Origin: a virus | Length of the DNA stretch: 43,594 nucleotides | Reading direction: 5' to 3' (one strand) | IMG/VR virus record: IMGVR_UViG_3300021197_000558 | Location: 1 to 43,594 of that record | In this document: piece by piece, positions 1-36,945 of the stretch | Numbering within the stretch: the first letter of the stretch is position 1 | Layout of the letters: every line of letters starts with the position of its first letter | The notes under the pieces: model-generated | The model's database searches: none | Told to the model about the DNA's origin: nothing | What the model saw: the letters and a program-made list of their open reading frames with translations, nothing else | Position numbers and translations under genes: made by a program

Positions 1-2000
1 TATTTACTCAAAGGTACTCCCAACAACAATTCCAAACTACCTATATCTGGAGTTTCTATATCGTTTAGATATTCTAGAGTTGGTCCACTGTTGGTGAATG
101 TTCTTACTGAGTACCAGAAGTTATCCAACTTGTTAGGTTTAGAAGCAGTCACTCTGTCTACGAACTGACCTATAGCAAGACCAGTCTGAGTTGAGCCTAC
201 AGGTGCAGTCAAGTTGACAATTCTATTACCACCTACTGTTACTCTTTCTATTTTGCCTTGAGCGTTAGTGGCTACAAAACCAATAGCACCATCGACAGGC
301 TGTCCAGACTGAACATCTACTTCACCATAGTTATCTTCAAGCCAGATATCTTCTAAACCACCTTCAAATCCATGGAAGATATAAGCTCTTGAGAAACCGT
401 CACCGCTGTCGTTCTTACGCATCTCATTGCCGAATACTCTAATACCTGTTGCGAATACACGAGCCACCTGGAACTGATTACCAACATAAACACCTCGATG
501 AATACCCGTTCCATCAGGACATTCAAATTTATTATATTTGACAGTCATGTTTTTAACAGGTCCGTTTTCATCACCAGCAGAAACACCTCTGGTTCCTATG
601 CGGATAGCGGTTAATTCCAAACCAGTATTGATTGAACCAACAGCTAAATTTTCACCAGTATTACCTTCTATCACTGTGTCTTCACATGATAGAATTCGCA
701 TTATACCCCCATAACTATAATTACCTTCAAAATGGTTGAAGCTGATAGTACCTCCTTTTGATCTAGCTTCTTTAGGTGAATGCTGATTCATCATATCAAT
801 ACCACCGCCATAGAAAACACCTTGTGCGATATTTGCAATAATGCGATTATAATCAATATTGAATGTAAACAGACCTCCAGCAACGTGTATCGGATACCAC
901 ACGTTATCAGTACAATCATTATGAGTACATTCTAGATTGGTAATATCTCTTACAAAGATTGCCGCCCCTGTTGTAGATGTCAATTCATTACTTTTAATAG
1001 TAACATTGTCAACATTATCAACATATAAGGCATGGGAAACAATAAGGTTGTTAGTACCTGTCAAACCATCAGAATTGTTTAAATTTTCAACTCTGTTGTT
1101 TAAATATTTATGATTTTTAAACTTAGTAGTACCATCGCCACCAAAGAATCCATACTGATTAGCAGTTAGGGTATATACCAATCCATTTCCGTTTTGCCCT
1201 ACGTTTTCAACGTGAACATCGTTTGTTTCAAAAGAAAGAGCTTTACCACCTGTAGTCCCCAAATCAGGAACTAAATATGTTTCAGTGGGTGAAGCAGCTA
1301 CCCAAGCCAGAGGCGATGAACATACGACAGGTGACGTTATACGAATAGCTCCAGGTGTATCTGAAGGGAATCTTGTAGCGTTCACCCAAGTTTCAAAAGC
1401 AGCGGTATCATCTTCAACACCGTCGGCTATCACACCTGCGACTTTGAAGTTAGCTGTTTCTGGATTGAGTAGTCGTAACTGAACACCGCTAGAACTATTG
1501 TCTAAATATGTGAACCCGTCATCTGTTCCAGTCGCAGCCGCCACTACGACATATTTAGCCTCACCTTTATCACCGACTGTTTTTCTACCGCCAGTCATGA
1601 CGATATCGCCTTCCACCAAAATAGAAGAGTCTATAGCTGCTTCAGCAGTTAGGAAAGTTATTTCTCGCTTATAGCGTTCCCAATTAGTACCGCCATCAGA
1701 AACAGGGTCGTTGCCATTTTGTTCAACGATAGCCTTATATAGTGCTGAGTCGCTACCTTTTACAATAGCTCCAACAGGATAAGAGGTGTCGGTGTCCCAT
1801 ATACCTATACCCTGTTCATTTATGTAAGCTAATCCTTGAGTGAATAACTGTTGTAAGAAGTTAAAATGCTCAAAAGGAGGAACTTCAGCTTGCCATCCGG
1901 CATTGAATTTTCCTGGTGTTGTTGTATCTGGATCCACCACGTTAGCAGGAGGAGCGCCATTAGCCCAGACACGAGTTAAGTCGGGTTTTGTTGTTGCCAT
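1..2000 (-). CDS. Tail spike with right-handed beta-helix, N-terminal 666 residues (gene continues at 43405..43594)
   Basis: An open frame runs from an ATG at 2000 to base 1 with no stop, and continues in frame through 43594 to a stop at 43405, giving 729 residues in a circular genome. The N-terminus (MATTKPDLTRVW...) is a virion-binding part. About residues 50-110 hold a carbohydrate-binding-like segment (YPVGAIVKGSDSALYKAIVE). Near residue 200 the motif ADGVEDDTAAF is the hallmark that opens pectate-lyase-type beta-helices of phage spikes, and an Asn/Gly-rich repetitive body follows. The family binds and often cleaves surface polysaccharide. It follows the DUF2612 baseplate gene with a 13-bp gap, the usual place for a receptor-binding protein. 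Whether it is an active depolymerase cannot be told from sequence. Confidence 0.88.
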   Translation of the reverse strand, partial: MATTKPDLTRVWANGAPPANVVDPDTTTPGKFNAGWQAEVPPFEHFNFLQQLFTQGLAYINEQGIGIWDTDTSYPVGAIVKGSDSALYKAIVEQNGNDPVSDGGTNWERYKREITFLTAEAAIDSSILVEGDIVMTGGRKTVGDKGEAKYVVVAAATGTDDGFTYLDNSSSGVQLRLLNPETANFKVAGVIADGVEDDTAAFETWVNATRFPSDTPGAIRITSPVVCSSPLAWVAASPTETYLVPDLGTTGGKALSFETNDVHVENVGQNGNGLVYTLTANQYGFFGGDGTTKFKNHKYLNNRVENLNNSDGLTGTNNLIVSHALYVDNVDNVTIKSNELTSTTGAAIFVRDITNLECTHNDCTDNVWYPIHVAGGLFTFNIDYNRIIANIAQGVFYGGGIDMMNQHSPKEARSKGGTISFNHFEGNYSYGGIMRILSCEDTVIEGNTGENLAVGSINTGLELTAIRIGTRGVSAGDENGPVKNMTVKYNKFECPDGTGIHRGVYVGNQFQVARVFATGIRVFGNEMRKNDSGDGFSRAYIFHGFEGGLEDIWLEDNYGEVDVQSGQPVDGAIGFVATNAQGKIERVTVGGNRIVNLTAPVGSTQTGLAIGQFVDRVTASKPNKLDNFWYSVRTFTNSGPTLEYLNDIETPDIGSLELLLGVPLSK

Positions 2001-2013
2001 ATTTATTCTCCAG

Positions 2014-2718
2014 TTAGAATATTAAGTTACCAAATTTACCGCCCTGATTAGGGTTGCTTAGTGACCCAAGTCCCGCGCTATTTGGCACTCCTTGGAATCC
2101 AAAAAAGTTACTACTGTCAAATTCTGTAACATAAGTCGCTTGAACACCAGCAGTTTTTGGAATTATATCTGTATCTAGCAATATTGATTTTTCGTTTAAT
2201 CCTAATTTCTTACCGATACTTACTTCATACCGAGTATCGCCATCTACAAATAACACTAAAGGTGAATCAAATATATATCTTATTTGTGCGATTATGTCTT
2301 CAGGTGTAGAAGCTGTTGAGTTTCTGGCTATTCTAGCTTTAATGAACAATCTATATTCATCATCGGTAAGTTGTCTTATACCAGTTGTTATTTCATCTAC
2401 GAATTTAAATCTACCACCTACAGAAGCATCTGATAAAGTACCAAACGGCTGAGCTTGAGGGTTATCAAAGAAACCAAAGTAATCAAATATTTCAGCGTCT
2501 ATAAATTCGCGAGACTGACCTACTATAGAACCTAGTATATCTAGCTGGACACCTTCGGCAGTATCTATCCATCTTTTTTCAAGTAGGTCACAATAAACTT
2601 GTTCTAAAGTATTGGACTCAATTAACAGCGCTCTTATATAAGATATTAAATTGGTAGACTCTTTAAATTCTGTAGCGAGTCTACTTATAGCTAATTCTTT
2701 GTGATCTATAGTGTTCAT
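2014..2718 (-). CDS. Baseplate protein, DUF2612 family (gpI-like)
   Basis: 234 residues. The N-terminus (residues 20-65, ...TLEQVYCDLLEKRWIDTAEG followed by VQLDILGSIVGQSRE) is the recognisable DUF2612 signature, and a Gly/Asn-rich C-terminus (GLGSLSNPNQGGKFGNLIF) follows. DUF2612 proteins take the place of P2 gpI in simple myovirus baseplates and link the gpJ wedge to the tail fibre or spike. The start overlaps the end of the gpJ-like gene by 4 bp, and the spike gene follows directly. The Phe/Gly-rich repeats near residues 75-105 and at the C-terminus (FGFFDNPQAQPFGTL, FFGFQGVPNSAGLGSL) resemble each other and may be spike-attachment surfaces. That last point is inference. Confidence 0.85.
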   Translation of the reverse strand: MNTIDHKELAISRLATEFKESTNLISYIRALLIESNTLEQVYCDLLEKRWIDTAEGVQLDILGSIVGQSREFIDAEIFDYFGFFDNPQAQPFGTLSDASVGGRFKFVDEITTGIRQLTDDEYRLFIKARIARNSTASTPEDIIAQIRYIFDSPLVLFVDGDTRYEVSIGKKLGLNEKSILLDTDIIPKTAGVQATYVTEFDSSNFFGFQGVPNSAGLGSLSNPNQGGKFGNLIF

Positions 2719-3890
2719 GAATTCACCGTTATATTAATCACTAGGAAATTAGATGTTTCTGTAGCACTTATTGGAATATTTGAAGTTACTACCGGACTAG
2801 GTGAAGTACCTATACGCAAGGCATCAATTTCATGCCCTTGAACAGAGTTGATAGGCGTGTATAACCTAGTATAAATAACATCGTCAGCAAGAGAGAAACC
2901 TCTACCCGCTATTAAATCACCGTTAGCATAATCTACGATAGCTTGTTTAATAAGGTCATCACCGTTAGCTGGATATTCTGCAAAGGTTGTTAGATCAACT
3001 TCTACATAGATATCAACAGTAGTCGGTCTAGAAAAAGATATGTCGTGAGGTATACCTTGACTATCTATAATTTGTGTTGTAGTGCTACCGAAAGATAAAA
3101 TACCAGCGGGTTTTTTGAGCCAGATAGCATTCGCAATATCTTCATCAACACCTCCAACCGCAATAACTTGGAATGAATGAGGTGGTAAGCCGTTTCCGTC
3201 AACAGCGTTTGTATCGTTTTCTAAGACGACTGTTTGTGTAACCCCTGGAACATTAGCTACAGCAGCAAAAATAGCGTCTATGATCGCCTGAGCGTCTCTA
3301 GCAACCGATTGTTCGCGACGAGACCTAAGCTCTACATCAGTTTCTTCATTGGTTCCAATATCAGCGTCGGCTAAATTATTAGCTGTTGACCAACCTGTTA
3401 TCGGTGTGTCTATAGAAGTTATCGTACCTGCTAAAGCTTCAACAGGTCCAGATATAACTGAAGCAGCAAAGACAGTACCGTTACCACCTCCATCAAGTGT
3501 TACTTGTGCTTCTGTAGAAAACTGATCACCTGTGTCGCTAGTGCTTACCAAACTTCCCAATGGAATAGTTGTCCCCGCTGTCCCTGTTAAGGTTAGCTGA
3601 GCTCTTGAAGAAGTTGCTGGTAGGCGAGTGATACCGTTTAGCTGAACCAAGTTTGAAAGAGTTACGCCAGTAGCCGATGAAGGATTAAAAGCATTATATG
3701 AATCCTCAGCAATTTCCCATAGATTTGCATTGGACTCAGAAATAGTACCGTTGACCTGTCCGTCAGGTGACTCTGGAGACACATTAAAATTATCGCCGAA
3801 TATACTTTTAACTTCGGCATTCAGTTCTTCCAACAACTGATCTAAGCGTTTACGCTTGAACCCTTCTGGGGATATACCGAAATCAGACAT
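2715..3890 (-). CDS. Baseplate wedge protein, gpJ-like
   Basis: 391 residues, matching the baseplate J-like family (PF04865) in layout: N-terminal GFKRKRLDQLLEELNAEVKS, a low-complexity Ala/Thr/Gly-rich beta middle (LTLTGTAGTTIPLGSLVST) and a C-terminal part with DIYVEVDLTTFAEYP and NGDLIAGRGFSLADDVIY. This protein forms the wedge ring around the hub. It overlaps the gp25-like gene upstream (8 bp) and the DUF2612 gene downstream (4 bp), so the three are translationally coupled. Family assignment rests on residue pattern and gene order. Confidence 0.88.
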   Translation of the reverse strand: MSDFGISPEGFKRKRLDQLLEELNAEVKSIFGDNFNVSPESPDGQVNGTISESNANLWEIAEDSYNAFNPSSATGVTLSNLVQLNGITRLPATSSRAQLTLTGTAGTTIPLGSLVSTSDTGDQFSTEAQVTLDGGGNGTVFAASVISGPVEALAGTITSIDTPITGWSTANNLADADIGTNEETDVELRSRREQSVARDAQAIIDAIFAAVANVPGVTQTVVLENDTNAVDGNGLPPHSFQVIAVGGVDEDIANAIWLKKPAGILSFGSTTTQIIDSQGIPHDISFSRPTTVDIYVEVDLTTFAEYPANGDDLIKQAIVDYANGDLIAGRGFSLADDVIYTRLYTPINSVQGHEIDALRIGTSPSPVVTSNIPISATETSNFLVINITVNS

Positions 3891-4248
3891 TTATTGTTAC
3901 CTTTTCATTATCTATCACACCGTAGGATGTTTCAGCAGAGAAAGAAACATTTAGCTTCCTAGTAGACCCACCTTCGTAATCCATAGAAAACTCTAACAAT
4001 CTTTCAACCTCGGGCGTATTTAAAATCCTAGATTTGAGTATTGACTCTATATTAGCTAAATTCACAGGCTTTGTAAATATTTGCTGGAAGTAAGGTGTAC
4101 CCGCTTGTAAATCTAAAAACCATTCTTCCAAATAGAATAGAAGTCTGGTTCTAACGTGCTGAACTGCTTCAGCTCCATCAGATACCAGTTTTAATTGACC
4201 ACCTTGTATAATGAGGTCATTGTTTGAATCTAATGCTCTACCGATCAT
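3883..4248 (-). CDS. Baseplate wedge protein, gp25/gpW-like
   Basis: 121 residues, the usual length of gp25-like sheath initiators. The stretch VRTRLLFYLEEWFLDLQAGTP followed by YFQQIF, then ILNTPEVERLLEFSMDY, fits the family, in which an EWF-type motif near the middle is conserved. It sits on the hub and starts sheath polymerisation. It overlaps the spike gene by 4 bp and the gpJ-like gene by 8 bp. Adjacent gpV-, W- and J-type genes in this order are standard for P2/Pam3-like baseplates. Confidence 0.85.
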   Translation of the reverse strand: MIGRALDSNNDLIIQGGQLKLVSDGAEAVQHVRTRLLFYLEEWFLDLQAGTPYFQQIFTKPVNLANIESILKSRILNTPEVERLLEFSMDYEGGSTRKLNVSFSAETSYGVIDNEKVTINV

Positions 4249-4964
4249 ACTGGAGCTCCTGTGTTAGACACCGGACCGTTAGGGGCAGTCGGTGAACCTG
4301 TGTGAGAATGAGTATCACTGATATCTTTACCGTTTGAAGTAACTGTTCCAGACAAAGCGCTTGAACCAATCACTTCTAAATTACCTAATATCTTGACGTT
4401 ACCAGTGAAGTCGGCATCGGGTGCGTCTACTGTGACCTTAGTATCTGCTTTTAATTCGGCAGTACCATCAGTTAACAATTTGAAAGATACAGTACCGTCA
4501 TCCTTTTTAAGTTCAACATTGGTATCGTCGTAGTTTGGAACTTTATTAGGTAGTGAGGATATTCCTACGAAAGCAGTCGCATCGCTCAAAGAATGAAATC
4601 TTCTAGCTCCAGGAACTTTAACTGTTCCGAACTCATGCCAGTTGTCAATAGAACGTTCACAAAACACCAATAGACATTCATCACCTTTAACCACTGGGAA
4701 TGTCAGTGAGAAACCGCCACCTCTTGGAAATTGAACTGGTACATTTATCAGAAGAGGTAGGTCTGAAGGAACTAATATTTCAGTATCTCCATCACGAGTT
4801 ACGAATATTCTTCTAATAGCTGGTTGTACTGTAGCTAACTGTTTTTCAGCATCGAACGATTCAACTATTCCAGGCATGGAAGTATGAAGATCTTTAAGCC
4901 TAGCGTCAACTCCCTGCTTTATATTAGCGGCTAGGGTTGCTAATGATGAACTCTTATCACCCAT
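4245..4964 (-). CDS. Membrane-piercing baseplate spike, gp138-like
   Basis: 239 residues. Residues 15-110 (GVDARLKDLHTSMPGIVESF, then LATVQPAIRRIF and VVKGDECLLVFCERSIDNWH) match the OB-fold domain of phi92 gp138/P2 gpV-type spikes. Residues 145-205 are a repetitive beta-prism (VELKKDDGTVSFKLLTDGTA, KADTKVTVDAPDADFTGNVK). The C-terminus carries DTHSHTGSP: in gpV and gp138 a tip HxH motif binds an iron ion, and this one probably does the same. The protein caps the hub and pierces the outer membrane, which supports a Gram-negative host. Confidence 0.87.
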   Translation of the reverse strand: MGDKSSSLATLAANIKQGVDARLKDLHTSMPGIVESFDAEKQLATVQPAIRRIFVTRDGDTEILVPSDLPLLINVPVQFPRGGGFSLTFPVVKGDECLLVFCERSIDNWHEFGTVKVPGARRFHSLSDATAFVGISSLPNKVPNYDDTNVELKKDDGTVSFKLLTDGTAELKADTKVTVDAPDADFTGNVKILGNLEVIGSSALSGTVTSNGKDISDTHSHTGSPTAPNGPVSNTGAPV

Positions 4965-5838
4965 TTATAATCCTACCTTTTACAGATGAAGTCCAATCCC
5001 CTTCACGAGAATCCCCTTTAAACGTAACCTCTTGGATTTTATAGGTTCCTTCGGCTGTAGTACGTTTTATATTTCTAAAGAATAAATTACCCAATTGGAT
5101 ATCGGCATTTACTGATTCTATTTTAAATGCTTTATTAGGTAAAAGCCTAGGATTTAATAGAGAAACTACATCAGCACCTATTTCAGTAACAATGGGGGAA
5201 CCTATCATACCTGTAGCAGCACTTATAAGAACAGCTTCATCGCCTTCTAACGGGCTTTCAACAGGCGTTATGATTACTTCCCCATCTTGAATACTCCAGT
5301 CAAATCCATACTCATCTGCAAAACCATCCAATATATCTTTGGAAGATCCAGATAATGTTTGACCTCTAAGTTTATCAGCCACTTGAGGTAATCCGTTTAT
5401 GACGCCAGTGGTTACTTCTTCAAACGATTTTAACACTTCTTCTATAGCTGCGCTGATAGTCACGTTTTCTGTAAATGTTTTGTTGAACGTGGCATTCTGC
5501 CAGTCACGTTCACCATCACCTGCATAGATAGTTATCAATCTATCAACGCCTATTTTAGATTGAAATACGTTTCTTATTTCACCTTTAAAAAGTAAACGTA
5601 CATCACCCTCATAACCTGCATTCAAAACAATCTTTGTGAATTTCTTTTGCAATGTTGAAAGGGTATCTTCGTTAGGGTTATAAATGACAAGCCTACATAA
5701 GTTTGGAAAGCTGAGGATGCTTTTCGTTATTTCAAAATTAACTCTTAAGTCATTTATAATACGAGCTTCACCGTCATCGGGAATTATAGTTAGCTCGTAG
5801 ACTCTTTTATATTGTCTAGCCACCAGCGACCTCTTCAT
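4957..5838 (-). CDS. Baseplate hub protein (gp27/gpD-like)
   Basis: 293 residues. Order and fold pattern fit a tail hub of the gp27/late-control-D type: a beta-rich N-terminus (YELTIIPDDGEARIINDLRV), a middle with DWQNATFNKTFTENVTISAA, typical of hub domains that position the spike, and a C-terminal TYKIQEVTFKGDSREGDW ending the ring domain. It overlaps the gp138-like spike by 8 bp and the plug-type gene by 23 bp. The name is from position plus these weak motifs. Confidence 0.78.
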   Translation of the reverse strand: MKRSLVARQYKRVYELTIIPDDGEARIINDLRVNFEITKSILSFPNLCRLVIYNPNEDTLSTLQKKFTKIVLNAGYEGDVRLLFKGEIRNVFQSKIGVDRLITIYAGDGERDWQNATFNKTFTENVTISAAIEEVLKSFEEVTTGVINGLPQVADKLRGQTLSGSSKDILDGFADEYGFDWSIQDGEVIITPVESPLEGDEAVLISAATGMIGSPIVTEIGADVVSLLNPRLLPNKAFKIESVNADIQLGNLFFRNIKRTTAEGTYKIQEVTFKGDSREGDWTSSVKGRIING

Positions 5839-6130
5839 CGGTAAGTAAGAATAACTTAGCTACTGTTCCCAAGTTATCCTTAGAAGCATCCATGTTAGAT
5901 TGGTCTAAATTTACGACATAGGCGTTTTCAATAGGAAGGTTATATTGTTTCAATATGTCAACACCTCCCAACAATGAAACACCGATAACTATATCAACTC
6001 CAGATTGTGAAAAAGATATAGACCAAACACCTGTTCTTGAATTCAATATAACTCTACAGTCATAAGCCTGTCCGCTTAAGATAATTGAAAACAATTGTTC
6101 AGGACTAGAATTTAAAGGGACTTCTATCAT
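5816..6130 (-). CDS. Baseplate plug protein, DUF6983-like
   Basis: 104 residues. I use the ATG at 6130, where the upstream stop and this start overlap as TAATG and an AGGTGG site lies 5 nt upstream; a longer form would need a TTG start. The small beta protein (MIEVPLNSSPEQLFSIILSG, then YDCRVILNSRTGVWSISFS) looks like the plug/initiator proteins next to the hub in Pam3-type baseplates. The motif Y-x-x-R-x-x-x-N-x-R-x-G-x-W is the strongest clue. It lies between the Dit-like and hub genes, as expected. Confidence 0.7.
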   Translation of the reverse strand: MIEVPLNSSPEQLFSIILSGQAYDCRVILNSRTGVWSISFSQSGVDIVIGVSLLGGVDILKQYNLPIENAYVVNLDQSNMDASKDNLGTVAKLFLLTDEEVAGG

Positions 6131-6744
6131 TATCCACCTACCCAATCAACAACTGATTTTAATACAGACCTGTTCGTAGCTTCTGGAGGGGTTACAGGTT
6201 CTTGTCTTCCGCGTTTTTCTGGCGAAGTACCTTGTTCTCTAGGGGAACCTTGTTCCAATTGATCAGGATCTAATTTTACGATTTGAGATTCTGTTATCAG
6301 AACTTCTTCAAGGTTCAATACCATGGAAACTATTCTAGAGGTATCTTTATCTTGAGATGTTGATAAGCTGGTTATCACCATGTTCTGATAGAGTTTTAAT
6401 TTTGTTTGAACTTCTATTGGTTCACGTTGCTCCATTAACTGAACCATTGCATTATAAGCCGCATTACTACGAGTTATATTTTGCGTTGTAGAAGTTCCGA
6501 ATAAACCTGTAACTAAATCAACAATCTGACCCAGAGCGGCTGTACCCAATGGCGTATCACTTACCTGAGCTACTATGTTTATTCTTTTAGGTTCTATAAT
6601 AGCATGGTCAGTAATATCTGCACCCAATTCAACAGGGTTCTTAGTAAGTCTTATTTGATTAGTATGGGTTTCACTAAGAACACCGTCTAACTCTATACCG
6701 CCTATAGATTTCTTAGTTCGTATAAATAAATTTTCAAAAGCCAT
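6130..6744 (-). CDS. Dit-like baseplate protein
   Basis: 204 residues. The N-terminal half (SIGGIELDGVLSETHTNQIRL, NPVELGADITDHAIIEPKRI, then PIEVQTKLKLYQNMVITSLS) has the pattern of the Dit-like N-terminal domain family found just after the tape measure in many simple myoviruses. Residues 165-195 are Pro/Glu/Arg-rich and probably disordered. Its start overlaps the tape-measure stop by one base. A structural role at the tail tip is inferred from family and position. Confidence 0.75.
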   Translation of the reverse strand: MAFENLFIRTKKSIGGIELDGVLSETHTNQIRLTKNPVELGADITDHAIIEPKRINIVAQVSDTPLGTAALGQIVDLVTGLFGTSTTQNITRSNAAYNAMVQLMEQREPIEVQTKLKLYQNMVITSLSTSQDKDTSRIVSMVLNLEEVLITESQIVKLDPDQLEQGSPREQGTSPEKRGRQEPVTPPEATNRSVLKSVVDWVGG

Positions 6745-8129
6745 TATTGATCCACCGCTGTATTTAGGTCTTGAGAAGTTTGTTGAAATACATTTAGAAC
6801 AGCGTCTGCAATGTTTTCAGCAGTATCAGCACCTCCCTGAACAACTATCTCAAGTTTGTCAACAACTGTTGAGGCAGTGTTAGAAATACTCTGACCTAAT
6901 TCTGGTATTAAGCCGCCACCACCTACCTCAACTAAACCAGTAACATCTCCAAGGAACCCTGGAATATTTCCTAAGAATTCTTTAAAGTCATCAAACGTAG
7001 CGTTACTGAATAAATCTATAATTTTAGACCAACCGTCAAATATCATTGCTGTCAAGTCAGCTATAGTTGCAAATATAGCAGCGACGACCCTAATTTCATC
7101 AGCCCATTCTGGGAACTTTTCAATCATGTCCCCAATGAAACTTTCACCGCCTTCAAAGAATGCCTTAGCATCCTCAGCTAGTAGAGCCAGAGCAGCGACA
7201 CCAGCAGCGATTAAAGCTGGGAGCAATAGTGCAGCCGCATTAGCAGCCAAAGCCGCCACAGACAGCCCTTTGAAGAGCGTAATTAGCGTCATTACATGAC
7301 TTACTAAACGCATAGCCAGCCAAGCACCTGTCGCTATAACAAGGAGCTTAAGAGCCATCGTAGCCTTATCTATCCAGTCAGGTAAGTTTTGCTCTATGAG
7401 TTGTCTATTGGTTTTCCACCACTCAATAAAACTATCTGTCATTTCCTGAATGATAGGAACGAACTGTCTAGCAAGTGTTCTTGAAACCTGTTTAACAATA
7501 CGCCATAAATTTGTCAAGGAATCTTGAAACTCTGCCGCTGCTTCTGCATCTTCAGCAGTAGTAACTCCTAACAACATAGCTTCGTCAGTCAGCTCGCGTA
7601 TCGCATCTGGTCCTTGTTGTAAGAGCCTTATGGAATCACGAATGCCGAGCTTATCAGCTAGTTCTATTTGTTGGGATTTACTTAGACCTTGGAAGCGTTG
7701 GGACACTTCCAACATAAGGTCGCTAGTCTTTTTAAGATTACCGTTGGAATCGGTGGCGGATATACCTAGTAAACCGAAGGCTTCAACACCACTACCTACA
7801 CCTCTAGCCGCTTCAGCAGCCCGTACAGCCAAACCTCTTAGAGAAGTGACCATACCATCTGCTGAACCGCCTGAACGTTCCAGTGCAAATTGTAAAGCGT
7901 CTATGTTTTCAACGGTATCGCCTATTTCATCAGCGAGCTTACCTTGTTCATCAGACGCTCTTGTTGAAGCAATAGTAAGTCCGGTGATAGCGACTGCTCC
8001 TGCGACAGCCGCTTTAGCTAAACCCTTGATGACGCCTGTCGTTTTACCTACGTCTTCTTTAAACTGTTTCATCTCCTTCGGGTCATATTCAAACCCGAGG
8101 CCGACTAGCAGTTCATCAATTATAGCCAT
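6744..8129 (-). CDS. Tail tape measure protein
   Basis: 461 residues. It starts with a short soluble region, then a hydrophobic helix (GLAKAAVAGAVAITGLTIAS, about 35-55), heptad-like helical sequence (residues 60-230), a strongly hydrophobic stretch (about 260-320, AALAANAAALLLPALIAAGV), and a Gly-rich tail. This composition and its place after the frameshifted chaperone identify a tape measure. With about 1.5 angstrom per residue the tail would be about 70 nm, a short contractile tail. The start follows the stop of the chaperone fusion directly (TAGATG) with an AAAGGG site about 9 nt upstream. Confidence 0.93.
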   Translation of the reverse strand: MAIIDELLVGLGFEYDPKEMKQFKEDVGKTTGVIKGLAKAAVAGAVAITGLTIASTRASDEQGKLADEIGDTVENIDALQFALERSGGSADGMVTSLRGLAVRAAEAARGVGSGVEAFGLLGISATDSNGNLKKTSDLMLEVSQRFQGLSKSQQIELADKLGIRDSIRLLQQGPDAIRELTDEAMLLGVTTAEDAEAAAEFQDSLTNLWRIVKQVSRTLARQFVPIIQEMTDSFIEWWKTNRQLIEQNLPDWIDKATMALKLLVIATGAWLAMRLVSHVMTLITLFKGLSVAALAANAAALLLPALIAAGVAALALLAEDAKAFFEGGESFIGDMIEKFPEWADEIRVVAAIFATIADLTAMIFDGWSKIIDLFSNATFDDFKEFLGNIPGFLGDVTGLVEVGGGGLIPELGQSISNTASTVVDKLEIVVQGGADTAENIADAVLNVFQQTSQDLNTAVDQ

Positions 8130-8749
8130 CTATTTCTTACCCTTTGGTTTAGGAGCTTGACTTACTTTCAAGTCAAGCAACTCATTCATAAGCATTACAT
8201 CCTCTATAGAATAAGTTCCGTCCTGAAGTTCTTTTAAAGTACACATCGGAGGGTCTGATAACATTGGCCGATGAAGAAAAGAATCAACATTTGGAAACCT
8301 ATTTTTATCTATAGATTTTCCTTCATTTTGGCCAGAAAGCGGTCTGCTAACTGGCCTTTGAATAAATTTGAGTAGTTCACCTGTAAGACGAATACGAAGA
8401 CCTTATAGACCTCCAATAAATCATCCCCTGAAAACAACTCGTTAAACGAAGATTCTGTGATACGCTTACCATCACATGCAACACCGACAACACAATTCTT
8501 CATAAGAGCTACTAACTCTTCAGGGGAATTGCTTTTGAATAATGTTGATAACCCTTCTGAAAGAGCTTTCGCTTCTTCCTGTTCAGTATTCTTTTTATCT
8601 TTTGATGGAGAACTTCCCATCAGGCTAGCTATGGATGCTCCGAACGCTTTCGCTAAACGAAACTTCATAAGCATAGATTTATCAGCAGGCCACTGAGTAA
8701 CACTGTACTCATGATCACCTATTTGTTTTGTTTCTGTATTACAAGCCAT
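8130..8749 (-). CDS. Tail assembly chaperone, -1 frameshift long form (gpGT-like)
   Basis: Reading the zero frame from 8749 through the TTA codon at 8365-8363 (129 codons) and then slipping back one base opens a frame that runs without a stop to a TAG at 8132-8130, adding 77 residues (206 in total). The added part begins IQRPVSRPLSGQ, contains MCTLKELQDGTYSIEDVMLM, and ends in a Lys-rich KPKGKK tail. It fills an otherwise empty 177-bp gap exactly and ends next to the tape-measure ATG, as T-domain extensions do. Slippage efficiency is unknown. Confidence 0.85.
8309..8749 (-). CDS. Tail assembly chaperone, short form (gpG-like)
   Basis: 146 residues and mostly helical. It lies between the tail tube and tape-measure genes, where tail assembly chaperones are found. 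Residues 50-70 (SPSKDKKNTEQEEAKALSE) are a charged linker and the C-terminus (SNLFKGQLADRFLAKMKENL) contains the frameshift region. A GGAG site lies about 7 nt before the ATG at 8749. In this family the short form is made in excess and a -1 frameshift yields a longer form; both coat the tape measure before the tube polymerises. The frameshift signal is annotated separately. Confidence 0.85.
   Translation of the reverse strand: MACNTETKQIGDHEYSVTQWPADKSMLMKFRLAKAFGASIASLMGSSPSKDKKNTEQEEAKALSEGLSTLFKSNSPEELVALMKNCVVGVACDGKRITESSFNELFSGDDLLEVYKVFVFVLQVNYSNLFKGQLADRFLAKMKENL
8330..8369 (-). promoter_or_regulatory. Programmed -1 ribosomal frameshift signal
   Basis: On the minus strand the heptamer A AAT TTA (8369..8363) fits X XXY YYZ in the zero frame (codons TCA AAT TTA). 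Six bases later comes GGCCAG (8356..8351), which pairs perfectly with CTGGCC (8335..8330) across a 15-nt loop. Slippery heptamer, 6-nt spacer and hairpin together are the canonical -1 frameshift arrangement. Confidence 0.88.
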
Positions 8750-8762
8750 TATAAACTCCGGT

Positions 8763-8853
8763 CCAGTTTACCCGACCAACAAGTAAGATCCGAGGGAGGC
8801 TGTCTAAATTAGGCCGGGATCATCAAGACAGATAACCCTCCCTCGGAAACTGG
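8763..8853 (-). repeat. Nested three-part inverted repeat between tube and chaperone genes
   Basis: Three nested perfect arms fill the intergenic gap: CCAGTTT (8763-8769) with AAACTGG (8847-8853), TCCGAGGGAGG (8789-8799) with CCTCCCTCGGA (8837-8847), and CTGTCT (8800-8805) with AGACAG (8826-8831). The outer and middle right arms share base 8847, so they pair fully only one at a time at that base. No T-tract follows in the direction of transcription. An attenuator, mRNA-processing or stabilising structure between the abundant tube message and the chaperone is more likely than a simple terminator. Confidence 0.7.
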
Positions 8854-9276
8854 TTATGCTCCGCCTAAGTGAAGCAAATCTAAACGCTCAACAGTTACCA
8901 TCCACTCTTGAGAGTTAGCGTTTGTACCTCGTGTCATAGAAGCTGGTCGGTTAATATAACCTTGAGTGCCAGACCCCAAATCATTTCCACGAGTGTCTTT
9001 AAATTGCACGAAGATAGGAATAAAAGCTCCATTCTCTTGTGCGTTAATTAAGCCTGACAAATAGGCATTAGAGTCAGAAGACTGCATTAGTCTAAAAGTA
9101 ACAGTACCTGAACGGTCTGCACTAATAGATACTGTCATCTCACCATCTGTCCCAATCTTGTGAGCAGCAGAATCATTCAACCGCTCAAGAGCGATGACAT
9201 CGTCACCCTCGTCAAAGCCGCTAATTTCAACACCGTTCACAAGCAATAGGGTGTCTAGGAAGCTATACTCTTTCAT
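8854..9276 (-). CDS. Tail tube protein, DUF3277
   Basis: 140 residues. The pattern YSFLDTLLLVNGVEISGFDEG, DRSGTVTFRLMQSSDSNAYL and GNDLGSGTQGYINRP is characteristic of DUF3277 (PF11681), the tail tube family that pairs with DUF3383 sheaths. The gene lies 12 bp after the sheath gene. It forms the inner tube through which DNA passes. The start is the ATG at 9276 with a GGGGAA site upstream. Confidence 0.9.
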   Translation of the reverse strand: MKEYSFLDTLLLVNGVEISGFDEGDDVIALERLNDSAAHKIGTDGEMTVSISADRSGTVTFRLMQSSDSNAYLSGLINAQENGAFIPIFVQFKDTRGNDLGSGTQGYINRPASMTRGTNANSQEWMVTVERLDLLHLGGA

Positions 9277-9288
9277 TAGAAATTCCCC

Positions 9289-10767
9289 TTATCGCTCGAA
9301 AATACCGTTAATCTGGACACTATGAATAGCACCAGCACCCAACACAACAAAACTCAAACCTGGATAATGACGTGCTTCTTTGTCAGACTGGTTAATATCT
9401 TCAACCGGAATAACAATAGTCTTATATCCATTTGGTAAGAATTCACCATCAATGGTTTCGCCTGGAGCAATAAGTCCGTTACGAACAGCTTCATCCAAAG
9501 CTGAAATAACTTGTTGCTCAATAGCCGCGATACCTTTGTTAGTATATGGAACCTTTGTGCTACGAGTAAGTAGATATCCGAACACATTAGTTTCAATAGC
9601 GTTTTGCAACCAGTCAACACCGTGTACTTCATCAAAGAACACACCGTTAGCCATGAAGGACTCAGCGAACATATCACTAGCGCCAACTTCAATCAATGCG
9701 TTGGCAAACTTACTATCCAGAACTGACTTCTGGGATTGAGTCAATTGCTCAACTGTAATTCCAGGCATCTGTTTGAACTTCAATGTGATGGTACTATTTA
9801 CCTGACTGAAATTAACAGTAAATGCACGACCTAAAATAGAAGCCGATGGATATTGATCAGGGAAAGAACTATATGTCGTCATGGTACGACGTAAGTTCTT
9901 AGCAGCCAGCACAGAAGCGATATCATTGGTTGTAACGCTATCCAGAACATCTAAGTCATTGGATGTATTACCAAATACTTTAACTCTTGCTTCACACCAG
10001 TCAGCAGCCGCTTCAACAGCATCTTCAGTATTGATTACAACACCGTCACGAACTTCTTTAGTGAAGAGTAATCCGTACCAGTCTGAATCGATATTCTGAA
10101 TTGCGTTTAGTGACGCTGTGATTGTTTCTGCTGCTATACCATCTGTCTTAGTACCTTCACCTTGACGCATTTGCAGTAAGGAAGAAATATCAGTACCAGT
10201 AGTAGGACTAACAGGTATTAAGAAACTAACGGTTGATGTGATACCTGTTGTACCTGAGTTGATGAAGAAACGGGTTCCATCATGAACACAAGTCGCAGCG
10301 GTATAACCACCAGTAGCAACAGCCTGAAGAGCAGTCTGTATGGAAGTAGCTATGTCGTCAAGGGTTGTTTCGGTATCAGTGAAGTCAAGCCCTGTGATGT
10401 CTTGAGCATCACCGTCAATACTAATAGTAAAGCTACCATCAGCAACGGCTAACAAAGCTGTCGCATCTGTTACAGCACCGCCTCGTAATTGAGCAGCTTG
10501 ATCAGTTGGGTATCGGGTGGATACTTTCAGTGATGTGGGTTTTGGCTGTTGACTAAAGTAAGCAGTCGCAGCCGCAACGACCTCAGAATTTGCAGGCCAG
10601 TCGGCAGTCACACCGTCCAAGTTCTGGTACGAACGAATTCGTTCAGCAATACCGATAACACCAGTTTCCGCAGTAACGATGTTAAGAGTGCCGAACCCTG
10701 CTCGTGCCGGAAATGGAGCACCGATGGCGATGCTGACATTTACCACGCTAGAAACTGGGATTGTCAT
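9289..10767 (-). CDS. Tail sheath protein, DUF3383
   Basis: 492 residues. The N-terminus (VVNVSIAIGAPFPARAGFGTL) and the sequence AATAYFSQQPKPTSLKVSTR are typical of DUF3383 (PF11863), the contractile sheath of this phage group. Residues 110-230 look like an inserted domain (ITGLDFTDTETTLDDIATSI), and the C-terminal VEDINQSDKEARHYPG region gives the strands that interlock subunits. Presence of a sheath establishes the myovirus morphotype. It follows the tail terminator gene by one base. Confidence 0.92.
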   Translation of the reverse strand: MTIPVSSVVNVSIAIGAPFPARAGFGTLNIVTAETGVIGIAERIRSYQNLDGVTADWPANSEVVAAATAYFSQQPKPTSLKVSTRYPTDQAAQLRGGAVTDATALLAVADGSFTISIDGDAQDITGLDFTDTETTLDDIATSIQTALQAVATGGYTAATCVHDGTRFFINSGTTGITSTVSFLIPVSPTTGTDISSLLQMRQGEGTKTDGIAAETITASLNAIQNIDSDWYGLLFTKEVRDGVVINTEDAVEAAADWCEARVKVFGNTSNDLDVLDSVTTNDIASVLAAKNLRRTMTTYSSFPDQYPSASILGRAFTVNFSQVNSTITLKFKQMPGITVEQLTQSQKSVLDSKFANALIEVGASDMFAESFMANGVFFDEVHGVDWLQNAIETNVFGYLLTRSTKVPYTNKGIAAIEQQVISALDEAVRNGLIAPGETIDGEFLPNGYKTIVIPVEDINQSDKEARHYPGLSFVVLGAGAIHSVQINGIFER

Positions 10768-18379: not shown

Positions 18380-18919
18380 CTAAACACCTTTTAATTGAAA
18401 GAAACCGTCTATACCGCAATTATGTTTATTAAGAGCGGACAAATTATCATTAATTCTACAGCCAAAAATATCACCGTTATCTCCATTTAAGATAATACCT
18501 TCAGAATATTCAAACAATGTAAAATCATAAATAGCAAGTCGACTAGAACCAGAAAGTTCTACAAATTGAACATCAGACCCTATACTAAAGAAATCAGAGG
18601 CTGACTTTATAACTGGTGTCAACGGTATTTCCTGACCATCAATAATAGTATAGAAAGTCACACCATTAGCAAGCGGTCCAGATATAGAACCGTAATCATC
18701 AACTCCTGTATTACCTGCGTCGCTTATTGTGAATTGAACTTTATTGACAGAAATTTGCCTATTAGCTTCAGCTTGAAAATAAAATTCTTGAGGTGTTACT
18801 GAACCGTCTACATCCATATCGGGGCTACCGCTTAACGTCCCATCATTAGTAAACGGTCTTTGAATTGGGAATTTACGAGAATCTGTTATTCTACCGTAAG
18901 CGTTTCTTAAAGAACTCAT
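18380..18919 (-). CDS. Hypothetical protein between terminase and portal
   Basis: 179 residues, almost all beta-prone with many Asp/Asn/Ser/Gly (GTLSGSPDMDVDGSVTPQEF, then YFQAEANRQISVNKVQFTIS, DAGNTGVDDYGSISGPLANG, SRLAIYDFTLFEYSEGIILN). The jelly-roll-like look and the reference to a vector-valued quantity at regular intervals resemble virion surface or decoration proteins, but I do not recognise a family. It has a good AAGGAAA site and its stop abuts the conserved element before the portal gene. A virion role is a guess from position. Confidence 0.7.
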   Translation of the reverse strand: MSSLRNAYGRITDSRKFPIQRPFTNDGTLSGSPDMDVDGSVTPQEFYFQAEANRQISVNKVQFTISDAGNTGVDDYGSISGPLANGVTFYTIIDGQEIPLTPVIKSASDFFSIGSDVQFVELSGSSRLAIYDFTLFEYSEGIILNGDNGDIFGCRINDNLSALNKHNCGIDGFFQLKGV

Positions 18920-18948: not shown

Positions 18949-19695
18949 CTACATTGAATTGGAATTATAAAGCATGTCTTCAAATACTATCAGATCCTCA
19001 ACGGCATCCATTGTCGGGTCTATCTGGTCATCATGCTTATGCGTCATTAGCGGTGTGAACTTTCTAAACTCTTCTTTATAGTCATGTAACCATTCAGCGT
19101 TCGCTGGAAGATGAATATAATTAGCAGCAAAGTATTTCACAACACCCATCGCCCGTAGAACCTTGTCAGTGTTACGCTGTATAGGTTCAACAGGAATAAA
19201 ATAATCTTTCTTGATAGATTGTATTAAAGAACTTCCTGAACTCTTATCTTCAATCTTTACAACTTGTGCTCCCATTGGTTTAAACTGTGTCGGTTTATGT
19301 TTATTCCAAAACTCTACCAGTTTAGATTCTAATTCCGGAGCTTCCCATTTACCTCGGAATTGATCAACAAGAAATATTCCTTTAGTCATTGATCTAGCCC
19401 AAAGCTGAAACACACTATAGTCATTTCGCTCAGCGGTTTTCTGTGCGGTATCCCCATAGATACGGAGTAAGTCTATGTCGGCTGGGAGCACATCATAATA
19501 CTTCCAATACTTATCCTTGAACATACCGCCACCCAAAGGACTCGGGTTTTGTTGATACTGACTAGCGAATGTGTACTTATCACCCTCTTCTAAGATGCGT
19601 AGTTTTTGAGCATCCTGTTTAAACGCCCATAGGGGGATATTTAAGGGTACTTGTTCTGGACATAGGGTAAGTATAGCGTCTGTACTAAAAAGCAT
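18949..19695 (-). CDS. terL: Terminase large subunit, C-terminal nuclease part
   Basis: 248 residues if translated from the ATG at 19695, which has GGAG 6 nt upstream; the open frame extends to an ATG at 19731. PLWAFKQDAQKLRILEEGDK and YTFASQYQQNPSPLGGGMF are the classic linker of large terminases. RNase H-like nuclease residues follow: YGDTAQKTAERNDYSVFQLW (first Asp), VKIEDKSSGSSLIQSIKKD (second acidic pair) and HDDQIDPTMDAVEDLIVF (last Asp). The ATPase half is encoded just upstream in another frame. Either this is a genuinely separate polypeptide or the two are joined by +1 frameshifting or bypass; see findings. Confidence 0.85.
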   Translation of the reverse strand: MLFSTDAILTLCPEQVPLNIPLWAFKQDAQKLRILEEGDKYTFASQYQQNPSPLGGGMFKDKYWKYYDVLPADIDLLRIYGDTAQKTAERNDYSVFQLWARSMTKGIFLVDQFRGKWEAPELESKLVEFWNKHKPTQFKPMGAQVVKIEDKSSGSSLIQSIKKDYFIPVEPIQRNTDKVLRAMGVVKYFAANYIHLPANAEWLHDYKEEFRKFTPLMTHKHDDQIDPTMDAVEDLIVFEDMLYNSNSM

Positions 19696-20554
19696 AAGGT
19701 ACTCCGCTGTGAAGAGCCTGTAGAATACCATTTAGGTCTATACGTCTACCGTGTGTATAATCTTCCGGATATTTACGGTTAATTTCTTCCTCACTCAATA
19801 GCGTGGGAATAGTTAAGTGATGCCAAACATCTCCCGAACCACCTTTAAGAAGGTAGCCAGAAAGGTCGTCTTCGTGAATACGTTGCATGATAACGATCAT
19901 TGGGACCGTCTCTACAGCAAGACGTGAACGCATAGTATTATTGAAACGGTTGTTAATAGCAGCACGTTTAACGACAGAATAAGCGTCATCAGGCTTCACA
20001 GGGTCATCAATAACAAAGGCTCCAGTGAAGCCCTCTTCCATACGACCAGCACGGAAACCAGTAATCTGACCACCAGCAGCAGCCGCCATCATACCGCCTC
20101 CGTCTTCCGTGAACCATCGTTTCTTACCTTTGGTGTCAACCCTGACATCCATAGGCCAGAGTTCTTGAAATTCTTGTAGATTGATAGTCTCTTTAATTTT
20201 GGAAGAGTTTTCCTGAGCTAGGTCGGCAGAATAAGAAGCGTGAATATATTTGGAACGTGGATTTAACGCCAAACCACGAGCAATGAAATTCAATACAGCC
20301 TGTTCAGTCTTGGTATAACCTGGAGCAATATTGATAACGAGCCTGTTAATCTTACATTCATAAACAGCTTGAAGGACATATTCAATCACATAATGATGCC
20401 AGTTACGAAGCATCTTTGTCCCTTCACGGTGTTTAAAGAAATACCTCATGAACTGAATACCGTCATTTTCAAGCATGTACTTCAGCATTCGCTTTTCATT
20501 AAGCGACCAAGGTTCCATATCATCAGGAGTTATTATAGGGCTAGAAGTCGTCAT
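19685..20554 (-). CDS. terL: Terminase large subunit, N-terminal ATPase part
   Basis: 289 residues from the ATG at 20554 (AAGGAG 8 nt upstream; overlaps the small subunit by 14 bp). Walker A is the degenerate NIAPGYTKTEQ, Walker B is GAFVIDDPVKPDD, and IMQRIHEDDLSGYLL is the coupling motif that follows. RNWHHYVIEYVLQ and YIHASYSADLAQENSSKIKE are typical of the family. The frame ends at TAG (19687..19685) soon after YTHGRRIDLNG, just where the linker to the nuclease should begin. The protein pumps DNA into the prohead. Confidence 0.87.
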   Translation of the reverse strand: MTTSSPIITPDDMEPWSLNEKRMLKYMLENDGIQFMRYFFKHREGTKMLRNWHHYVIEYVLQAVYECKINRLVINIAPGYTKTEQAVLNFIARGLALNPRSKYIHASYSADLAQENSSKIKETINLQEFQELWPMDVRVDTKGKKRWFTEDGGGMMAAAAGGQITGFRAGRMEEGFTGAFVIDDPVKPDDAYSVVKRAAINNRFNNTMRSRLAVETVPMIVIMQRIHEDDLSGYLLKGGSGDVWHHLTIPTLLSEEEINRKYPEDYTHGRRIDLNGILQALHSGVPYAF

Positions 20555-20945
20555 TAAACTTCTCCTTAAATAATTCAATCTCTTCTTCGTTCAACGGGTT
20601 ATCTTGAACTGATGCGGAACCTGAATTACCACCATTGACTTCAACTTGTTTACGCTTAGCATGTAGGTATTCGGCGAGAGTTTTACTAGCAGTGATAGAT
20701 TCGGACAAGGTAACAGTGTGATATTTGAAACGGTTCATCACATGATCAACAATCTCGTTCCAGTCACCTTTGGATAATTCACCATTGGTAAAAGCGTCAA
20801 TCTCCATAATGAGTTCATATATGGATGAAAGTCTACGAGGGTCTTGCCCGTTCATCACCGCTTCTAAAAAGACAAGGGGATCCTTCGCTTCACCCTCATG
20901 GATGAGATCCCTTAAATCTTTAATTGAAAGCGATTTGTGTGGCAT
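20541..20945 (-). CDS. terS: Terminase small subunit
   Basis: 134 residues. The first part has short helices (SIKDLRDLIHEGEAKDPLVF, then LEAVMNGQDPRRLSSIYELI) and the end carries SKTLAEYLHAKRKQVEVNGG, a Lys-rich stretch typical of terminase small subunits that recognise the packaging site. It overlaps the ATPase gene, and a sigma-70-like promoter lies at 20980-21008. The ribosome binding site is weak. Confidence 0.83.
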   Translation of the reverse strand: MPHKSLSIKDLRDLIHEGEAKDPLVFLEAVMNGQDPRRLSSIYELIMEIDAFTNGELSKGDWNEIVDHVMNRFKYHTVTLSESITASKTLAEYLHAKRKQVEVNGGNSGSASVQDNPLNEEEIELFKEKFNDDF

Positions 20946-35699: not shown

Positions 35700-36202
35700 T
35701 GAATATTCGCAATATACTTCATAGCGGTGACGTGGTTCGCTTTCATAACCATGTTGGTATTGATAAACAGAAGACCTCAGAACACCAGTGGGGCGTCGCA
35801 CTTATTGTTGAGCATATTTACCCAGAAGGTTCCAAAGCATTGCTTCTAGCCGCTCTTACGCACGATGCAGCGGAATACTATATGGGTGATATTCCTGCAC
35901 CTGTTAAGTGGGATAACCCTGAGCTGAAAGCAATGCTTCAGCAAATGGAACGTAAATGGGAAGAGCGTAATGGTGTAGATTTTGACTTGCATCATGATGA
36001 GCACGTTGTTCTTAAAATGGGTGATACCCTTGAGGGAATGTGGTTCTGTGTTCATCAAGTACGTCTAGGTCACATTAACGCCAAACGTCCGTTCCGTAAA
36101 TGGCGTACATTCTTTCACGATACCTTTTCAAGTTATCAGGAAAAGTATCCAAAGGCGTTTGAACTTTACACCAATCTAATCCAAGAAATGGAGGAGCTAT
36201 AA
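35699..36202 (+). CDS. HD-domain nucleotidase (YfbR-like)
   Basis: 167 residues. H29 (TSEHQWGVALIV), H55-D56 (ALTHDAAEYYMGDIPAPVK) and D109 (VLKMGDTLEGMWF) form the HD metal site; E59 and D64 fit the dNMP 5'-nucleotidase YfbR family. Such enzymes dephosphorylate deoxynucleoside monophosphates and could remove host dTMP or shape the pool for the modified nucleotide. The ATG is joined to the stop of the TS-like gene (TAATG) with GGAGG upstream, so they are co-translated. Confidence 0.85.
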   Translation: MNIRNILHSGDVVRFHNHVGIDKQKTSEHQWGVALIVEHIYPEGSKALLLAALTHDAAEYYMGDIPAPVKWDNPELKAMLQQMERKWEERNGVDFDLHHDEHVVLKMGDTLEGMWFCVHQVRLGHINAKRPFRKWRTFFHDTFSSYQEKYPKAFELYTNLIQEMEEL

Positions 36203-36945
36203 TGGGTACTTATATGAATCCTGTCAGCGATATTCAAACCGAAGATATTTTGGATAGTTTGAATTATGATGAAGAAACAGGTATTTTCACTTGGAAGAAA
36301 TCACGTGGAAACCAAAAAGCAGGTTCGCAAGCTGGTACTATCGACGGACATGGCTATATCTGTATTCAGATAAATCGTAAACCTCATAGAGCTCATAATA
36401 TAGCTTGGAGGTTTGTCAATGGTGTTTGGCCTAAATATTCTATTGATCATATTAACCGTGAACGAACTGACAATCGTATTATTAATCTTCGTGATATACC
36501 TTTCAATGAAAACTTGGCTAATTCCCCTAGAAGTAAAGGCGGTAAAATAGATGCTATCCAGATAGGCGGTGATCATTATAAGAATCACGCTTACCAACAT
36601 TGGAACATGGTTTGTGATACCGATCTACCTTATATTCTTGGATGTGCTACTAAATATGTCAGCCGATGGGAAAATAAAAATGGTATTGAAGACCTTCGTA
36701 AATCTATTCATTATATTGAAAAGGCCGATCAAGAAGTTATTTTCGCTGAAGATAGTAAAGAATTCCGTTCCTACTATAGATTATTCTTAACTCAATTTGG
36801 TGAGTTTGAACAACAGGTTTTAGAATTTATCTACGAAGGGTTATATCCTGAAGCTGTGGAACTCATTCGTGACCGTATAGACGAAGCTGAGTGCGGTCCG
36901 ACTGCAAACTATGTTGATCCTGACAAAAATTACATCCGAGGTTAA
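36202..36945 (+). CDS. HNH endonuclease fused to DUF3310
   Basis: 247 residues. Residues 25-110 form an HNH homing-type nuclease: WKKSRGNQKAGSQAGTIDGH, YICIQINRKPHRAHNIAWRF, then SIDHINRERTDNRIINLRDI with the DH...N...N pattern. Residues 115-175 are DUF3310 (DAIQIGGDHYKNHAYQHWNM, YILGCATKYVSRWENKNGIE, DLRKSIHYIEKA), usually a stand-alone protein beside phage nucleotide-metabolism genes. The two parts follow without a gap in one frame. The homing-type nuclease appears to have invaded or fused to the DUF3310 gene. Confidence 0.83.
   Translation: MGTYMNPVSDIQTEDILDSLNYDEETGIFTWKKSRGNQKAGSQAGTIDGHGYICIQINRKPHRAHNIAWRFVNGVWPKYSIDHINRERTDNRIINLRDIPFNENLANSPRSKGGKIDAIQIGGDHYKNHAYQHWNMVCDTDLPYILGCATKYVSRWENKNGIEDLRKSIHYIEKADQEVIFAEDSKEFRSYYRLFLTQFGEFEQQVLEFIYEGLYPEAVELIRDRIDEAECGPTANYVDPDKNYIRG

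Follow-up and report, generated by a model that had tools for sequence, protein, structure and literature searches.

The large terminase of the virus examined here, one of a group of uncultured tailed phages that share the arrangement, is very probably made as two polypeptides, an ATPase and a nuclease, from two overlapping genes whose arrangement suggests translational coupling. This reading, which had been one of several options in a first-pass annotation of the DNA, draws on the presence of two open reading frames, a conserved start codon embedded in the 3' end of the first, the conservation of and selection on the tails at either side of the break, and the lack of an intact copy in the record. 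The two proteins presumably partner and are active.

The terminase genes of the window

The DNA analyzed, called the window below, is a virus record of 43.6 kb. Its gene set is of the myovirus type and includes genes for the tail sheath, tape measure, portal, a head protein, primase, DNA polymerase, helicase, ligase and thymidylate synthase. Two overlapping minus-strand frames encode its large terminase, and the first-pass annotation had placed them correctly. The ATPase gene (20554-19685) runs from an ATG at 20554 to a TAG at 19687-19685, directly after YTHGRRIDLNGILQALHSGVPYAF, and encodes 289 aa (33.1 kDa); an in-frame TTG also lies upstream, at 20578. A Pfam search with the ATPase half gave no match, and the protein matches the terminase large subunit profiles phrog_38 (E 1.5e-48) and phrog_4758 (E 5.1e-57). 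The nuclease gene (19695-18949, minus strand) is read in the +1 frame relative to the ATPase gene, from a conserved ATG at 19695 through IPLWAFKQD to 18949, and encodes 248 aa (28.9 kDa); the longest open reading frame in this register begins at an ATG at 19731, a codon that is not conserved. Its product matches Terminase_6C (E 8.7e-12) as well as phrog_38 and phrog_5573, and six acidic residues of this RNase H-like half (D82, E149, D150, D222, D223 and D226), which we take to be catalytic, are invariant in an alignment of 42 sequences. Placing both activities on one polypeptide is usual for large terminases (TerL), if not strictly required, and is found neither in the window nor in any of the 49 junctions of its type described below.

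The two genes share an 11-nt overlap, ATGCTTTTTAG (19685-19695, minus strand), which contains both the start of the nuclease gene and the stop of the ATPase gene. The GGAG and ATG that had been pointed out earlier as a potential start for the second protein are indeed present, with the Shine-Dalgarno-like GGAG (19705-19702) located 6 nt 5' of the ATG at 19695. The open reading frames that flank the terminase pair (20541-20945 and 18380-18919) have no Pfam or PHROG match, although by eye both seem to have counterparts in a fused relative, L208; the former occupies the small-terminase position. Elsewhere in the window genome, an open reading frame at 36202-36945 contains an HNH_3 domain.

Conservation of the split

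Relatives were collected by scanning IMG/VR with each half and by adding fetched genome and phage loci. Among 152 loci that have both parts of the terminase, 105 are split and 47 are fused, and the split loci reduce to 55 unique junctions, the window included. These comprise 49 junctions of the window type, five with another break position, and one locus (L044) whose nuclease frame is broken again past the start, through error or decay, and which was excluded from the counts of 49; loci fetched later were screened and likewise kept out of these counts. Since the break recurs in 55 unique junctions, 49 of them of the same type, the terminase split noted in the first-pass annotation is real and far beyond chance. 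The window-type split is retained down to ~70% protein identity, and when 12 records of 40-47 kb (the window and 11 relatives) were searched with the phrog_38 profile, each was found to contain one ATPase stretch, one nuclease stretch and no intact copy.

By sequence, the nearest cultured phages are <60% identical. In eight of the nine cultured loci that were fetched, the terminase is annotated as one CDS of about 1.46-1.53 kb, and the ninth, ENT47670, has a terminase region without an annotated CDS. Helicobacter phage KHP30 was considered as a cultured split case and rejected, as its annotated terminase is one CDS; Salmonella phage 36 has a 293-aa terminase record, and no terminase is annotated within the stretch examined (1-10000). 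A deposited 286-aa protein that is 67% identical to L208 over 280 columns appears from this match to be the ATPase half of a window-type split. A scan of bacterial and archaeal genomes identified two distant fused relatives, both from one Desulfovibrio.

Start of the nuclease gene

The sequence suggests that ribosomes would terminate ATPase synthesis at the UAG and restart at the overlapping AUG to produce the nuclease, with help from the nearby ribosome-binding site. The arrangement expected of a coupled gene pair, a conserved start within or beside the upstream stop, is present across the group. In the 49 unique window-type junctions, 48 nuclease genes begin with ATG and one (L045) with GTG. 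Counted to the end of the ATPase stop, the ATG lies 11 nt ahead in 43 junctions and 17 nt ahead in L047; in L052 it overlaps the stop as TAATG, at another frame offset, and in three (L008, L097 and L030) passenger genes come first. The ATG takes its A and T from a Tyr codon, which is TAT in 46 of 46 cases, against a TAT share of 59% in these genes. Clustering the nuclease sequences at 90% identity, which leaves 27 clusters, gives TAT in 24 of 24; both figures are uncorrected for a tree.

The 16S tail pairs more strongly ahead of this start than it does on average within the gene itself in 45 of the 47 window-type junctions that had a control, the other two (L006 and L022) being no better than that average. 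With the second split type counted in, just 9 of 54 junctions rank within the top 5% of windows from inside the same gene, and the evidence for ribosome binding is modest. The G-rich stretch ahead of the start also encodes conserved Gly residues. The start codon, ATG in 48 of the 49 junctions, is thus the strong signal, and the ribosome-binding site, outstanding in only 9 of 54, is a supporting one.

Sequence added at the junction

An alignment to homologues, proposed earlier as a check, was run and shows extra sequence at the break. Short-linker fused relatives, with sequences such as GIPIEYDLPPGPLW, have 27 nt between two reference points that are 109 nt apart in the window and mostly 106 or 109 nt apart in the other window-type junctions, so the extra length is 82 nt. 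An insert of 91 nt had been proposed from the words CTAAAT (19735-19730) and TTAAAT (19644-19639); these are indeed 91 nt apart, but as a repeat they are only 6 nt long, are not listed in a repeat search and are missing in relatives, so that the repeat is not meaningful, and an insert with these two words as its borders is not supported. An 18-nt imperfect direct repeat (83%; 19635-19652 and 19767-19784, 132 nt apart) also spans the junction and is probably due to chance.

Two protein segments at the junction are missing in the short-linker relatives: a C-terminal tail of the ATPase, NGILQALHSGVPYAF (19688-19732, minus strand), and an N-terminal head of the nuclease, MLFSTDAILTLCPEQVPLNI (19636-19695, minus strand). 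With the 11-nt overlap excluded, the ATPase tail has a pN/pS in its own frame of 0.39 (29 sequences) or 0.43 (14 sequences), as expected of purifying selection on the codons that precede the overlap, and the nuclease head has values of 0.61 and 0.62 in its own frame. When tail and head are read in shifted frames, pN/pS is 0.86-2.34 and many of these readings contain stops. Both tails of the so-called insert therefore evolve as protein, each in its own frame, a pattern not easily reconciled with a bypassed gap, an intron or a scar. RNAalifold detected no conserved RNA structure among 43 junctions of equal length, and a hairpin predicted over the GGAG of the window has pairing that is not conserved.

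In three relatives the junction holds whole genes, and in each of these the nuclease that follows has its own ATG. An endonuclease gene between the halves is missing in the window and was found in 2 of 49 junctions: L008 and L097 contain an HNH_3 endonuclease open reading frame that overlaps its neighbors at both ends, with its start on the ATPase stop and its stop on the nuclease ATG. These two cases are separate, nested tips in the trees, which speaks against the HNH gene as the cause of the split and makes its insertion look later. The junction of L030 (3872-4485) contains an Rz-like spanin open reading frame (E 0.001), an overlapping frame with what we read as a lipoprotein-like start, and a small membrane-like open reading frame; a position between two terminase genes is an odd location for a lysis set.

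Alternative readings of the junction

Several other explanations, most of them raised by the first-pass annotation, bear on the same sequences. A programmed +1 frameshift, in which the Phe tRNA would slip one base at UUU-UAG to give a fused terminase, either alone or beside the two short proteins, seems unlikely. TTT-TAG followed by T or C is present in 42 of the 49 unique junctions, the CTT-TAA and CTT-TAG of L041 and L045 would likewise permit a slip, and the fused product would have 40 residues from THG to PLW, equal to the natural fusion L208. However, TTT-TAG is missing in the remaining seven junctions, the slip site is lost in L047 (CTC-TAG) and L052 (GCC-TAATG, at the other offset), and no slip site is common to all members. 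In addition, a slip would be unworkable where whole genes occupy the junction, since it would join the ATPase to the HNH protein in L008 and L097 and to the spanin-like protein in L030. The ATG and its TAT codon are also retained though a frameshift would not need them, and no stimulatory RNA structure is conserved. Judged from the motif, some +1 slippage at TTT-TAG is possible. The probability that the break is a sequencing error or a gene in decay is negligible, for although one base would restore a single frame, the 49 unique junctions, the purifying selection and the lack of a second copy in 12 of 12 records all oppose it, and sequencing error is excluded by the conservation of the split.

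It is also very improbable that the junction is an intron or intein, or a scar left by a mobile element since lost, and that the coding sequence is rejoined in the RNA or the protein. HNH genes do occur in the junction of two relatives, and excerpts of published work describe phage terminases with introns or an intein, in ICP1 (PMC10448857) and in Campylobacter phage IBB_35 (PMC3322345). Against this, the extra stretch is <100 nt, its tails are conserved protein, the window has no Rfam match at the gathering score, and the nested position of the HNH cases makes that insertion look later than the split. The last of these readings, a ribosome that hops over an untranslated stretch in the manner of T4 gene 60, has scarcely any probability: the supposed borders, 91 nt apart, do share AAT, but the stretch between them is translated in two frames under selection, the border words are not conserved, and the 100-nt stretch folds no better than shuffled sequences (z 0.80). 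The features of a gene 60-type bypass, namely an untranslated gap, matched take-off and landing codons and a hairpin, are thus not found here. With both sides translated and neither conserved flanking repeats nor conserved RNA structure, the scar and the bypass proposed earlier both lack support, and two coupled genes remain the preferred explanation.

Position of the break in the predicted structure

The predicted model of the fused terminase L208 (70 rows, pLDDT 88.7, pTM 0.82) was used to place the break in the fold. Searches of solved structures by sequence gave no match for the joined reading of the window or its profile, and only weak, unrelated rows for L208. ATPase-domain crystal structures of the T4 and P74-26 enzymes align to the L208 model from residue 21 up to 349-355, and nuclease-domain structures align from 349-355 onward. 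The window break maps to about 306-307 of the model, next to a disordered stretch (residues 297-305), and therefore lies about 45 residues inside the ATPase domain. A lid subdomain of the ATPase is named in passages of the D6E paper (PMC5727402), and the part of the domain that holds the break would correspond to this lid, the helix assignment being our inference from the model. The cut thus appears to lie inside the motor part and not between motor and cutter.

If this assignment holds, the break would fall in a flexible loop of the lid, and the nuclease protein would carry the last two lid helices, in a segment (19540-19635, minus strand) that matches the last part of the lid subdomain in the L208 model. 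The nuclease protein would then have to bind the ATPase protein, completing the lid that couples ATP hydrolysis to movement, and it probably does so in trans. When the nuclease protein is modeled alone, residues 1-60 have low confidence (block means 46-62), which fits a dependence on the ATPase protein without being proof of it.

Origin of the split

The window type forms one group, with SH-aLRT support of 93 in the nuclease tree and 100 in an ATPase tree from which six distant fused rows were excluded. L208 encodes a fused terminase in a single 547-aa frame, with the extended linker at the same length of 40 residues and no ATG at the break position. A single frame with the same linker of about 30 residues in all relatives had been named earlier as evidence against a split; L208 has such a frame, but the 49 window-type junctions do not. 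Concatenated trees place L208 as sister to the split group, with support of 99 for the two together and of 93 for the split group alone, and a careful concatenated tree of 32 rows gives the split group support of 94/72. Tests do not reject topologies that nest L208 within the split group (p-AU 0.25, 0.34 and 0.09), so L208 is favored, not proven, as the pre-split form. It may be proposed that the lid loop of a fused terminase, already lengthened as in L208, underwent a frame change, that the enzyme survived because a restart codon was already in place, and that mobile or passenger genes later entered the harmless junction in some members.

A second type of split was found in L065, L067, L138, L140 and L149, and in a later find, L218. 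Here the break is ~20 residues earlier, after WHHL-LP, with a restart before AI(P/S)IE; roughly 300-400 nt lie in the junction of L065, L140 and L218. Each of the six records has one piece of each kind, and the restart site is poor in four of the five tested. The different break position and the fused rows that lie between the two types in the trees point to an independent origin of this second split. On balance, we lean toward a two-chain motor in which each unit is a heterodimer with a lid finished in trans, and in which cuts in the lid arose at least twice and opened a site for homing endonucleases and lysis genes.

Other loci bear on how the halves are combined. The fused L128 and L130 have a nuclease 64-65% identical to that of the window and an ATPase only about 40-41% identical, and terminase halves seem from these values to have been exchanged between lineages. 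The cultured phages L156-L163 have an ATPase ~49-56% identical to that of the window, and none of the eight appears among the loci counted as having both parts, a pattern that hints at exchange at the same border. L212 contains a nuclease gene with its own start (389-1141, MEFSAGDI...); neither the 388 nt that precede it nor the rest of its 9,367-nt record contains an ATPase.

Implications and comparison with known systems

The large terminase is a single-gene marker of tailed phages and is usually described as one chain. Passages of a jumbo-phage review describe the large subunit as universal in jumbo phages and the nuclease domain as a universal feature across the Caudovirales (PMC7824862). 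Half-length PHROG families and split essential phage genes are already known; a two-gene large terminase, as the sequences indicate here, appears to be without a published description in the open-licence part of PMC, where our search found no paper. PHROG 4758 (243 aa, the ATPase part) and 5573 (250 aa, the nuclease part) match the window halves, have lengths that fit the second split type, and are labelled only 'terminase large subunit'.

One advantage of a naturally divided terminase is that its halves can be mixed, titrated and mutated apart, so it could serve as a ready-made test of how the lid transfers force between ATPase and nuclease. The split also suggests how an essential enzyme can come to be encoded by two genes with no mobile element behind the change. 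In addition, it is a warning that such phages may look incomplete to gene finders and marker-gene surveys, or that one of the halves may be overlooked.

The window shares some features with several known systems. RF2-type (prfB) genes use a +1 frameshift with a pyrimidine-rich codon before the stop, and the window also has such a codon at this position; unlike prfB, the window type has no slip site in all of its members and has a conserved start codon of its own. Friedrich et al. reportedly described, in 2007, a 'genes-in-pieces' ribonucleotide reductase split by a homing endonuclease, which we take to be the one named MobE. As in that case, an essential phage enzyme would be made as two chains, and L008 and L097 have an HNH gene in the junction; in contrast, the window and 46 others of the 49 junctions have none, the HNH cases are late tips, and the likely cause of the window-type split is a frame change in a lengthened loop. 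Like the single-chain TerL of T4 (gp17), D6E and Pseudomonas phage KPP23, the window has an ATPase half and an RNase H-like nuclease half that match the corresponding profiles, as well as a portal gene nearby, and the predicted fold of the fused relative L208 agrees with these enzymes. It is unlike them in having two genes and, by implication, two chains: the KPP23 terminase, about 55% identical, is encoded by one gene of 1,509 nt, where the window has two.
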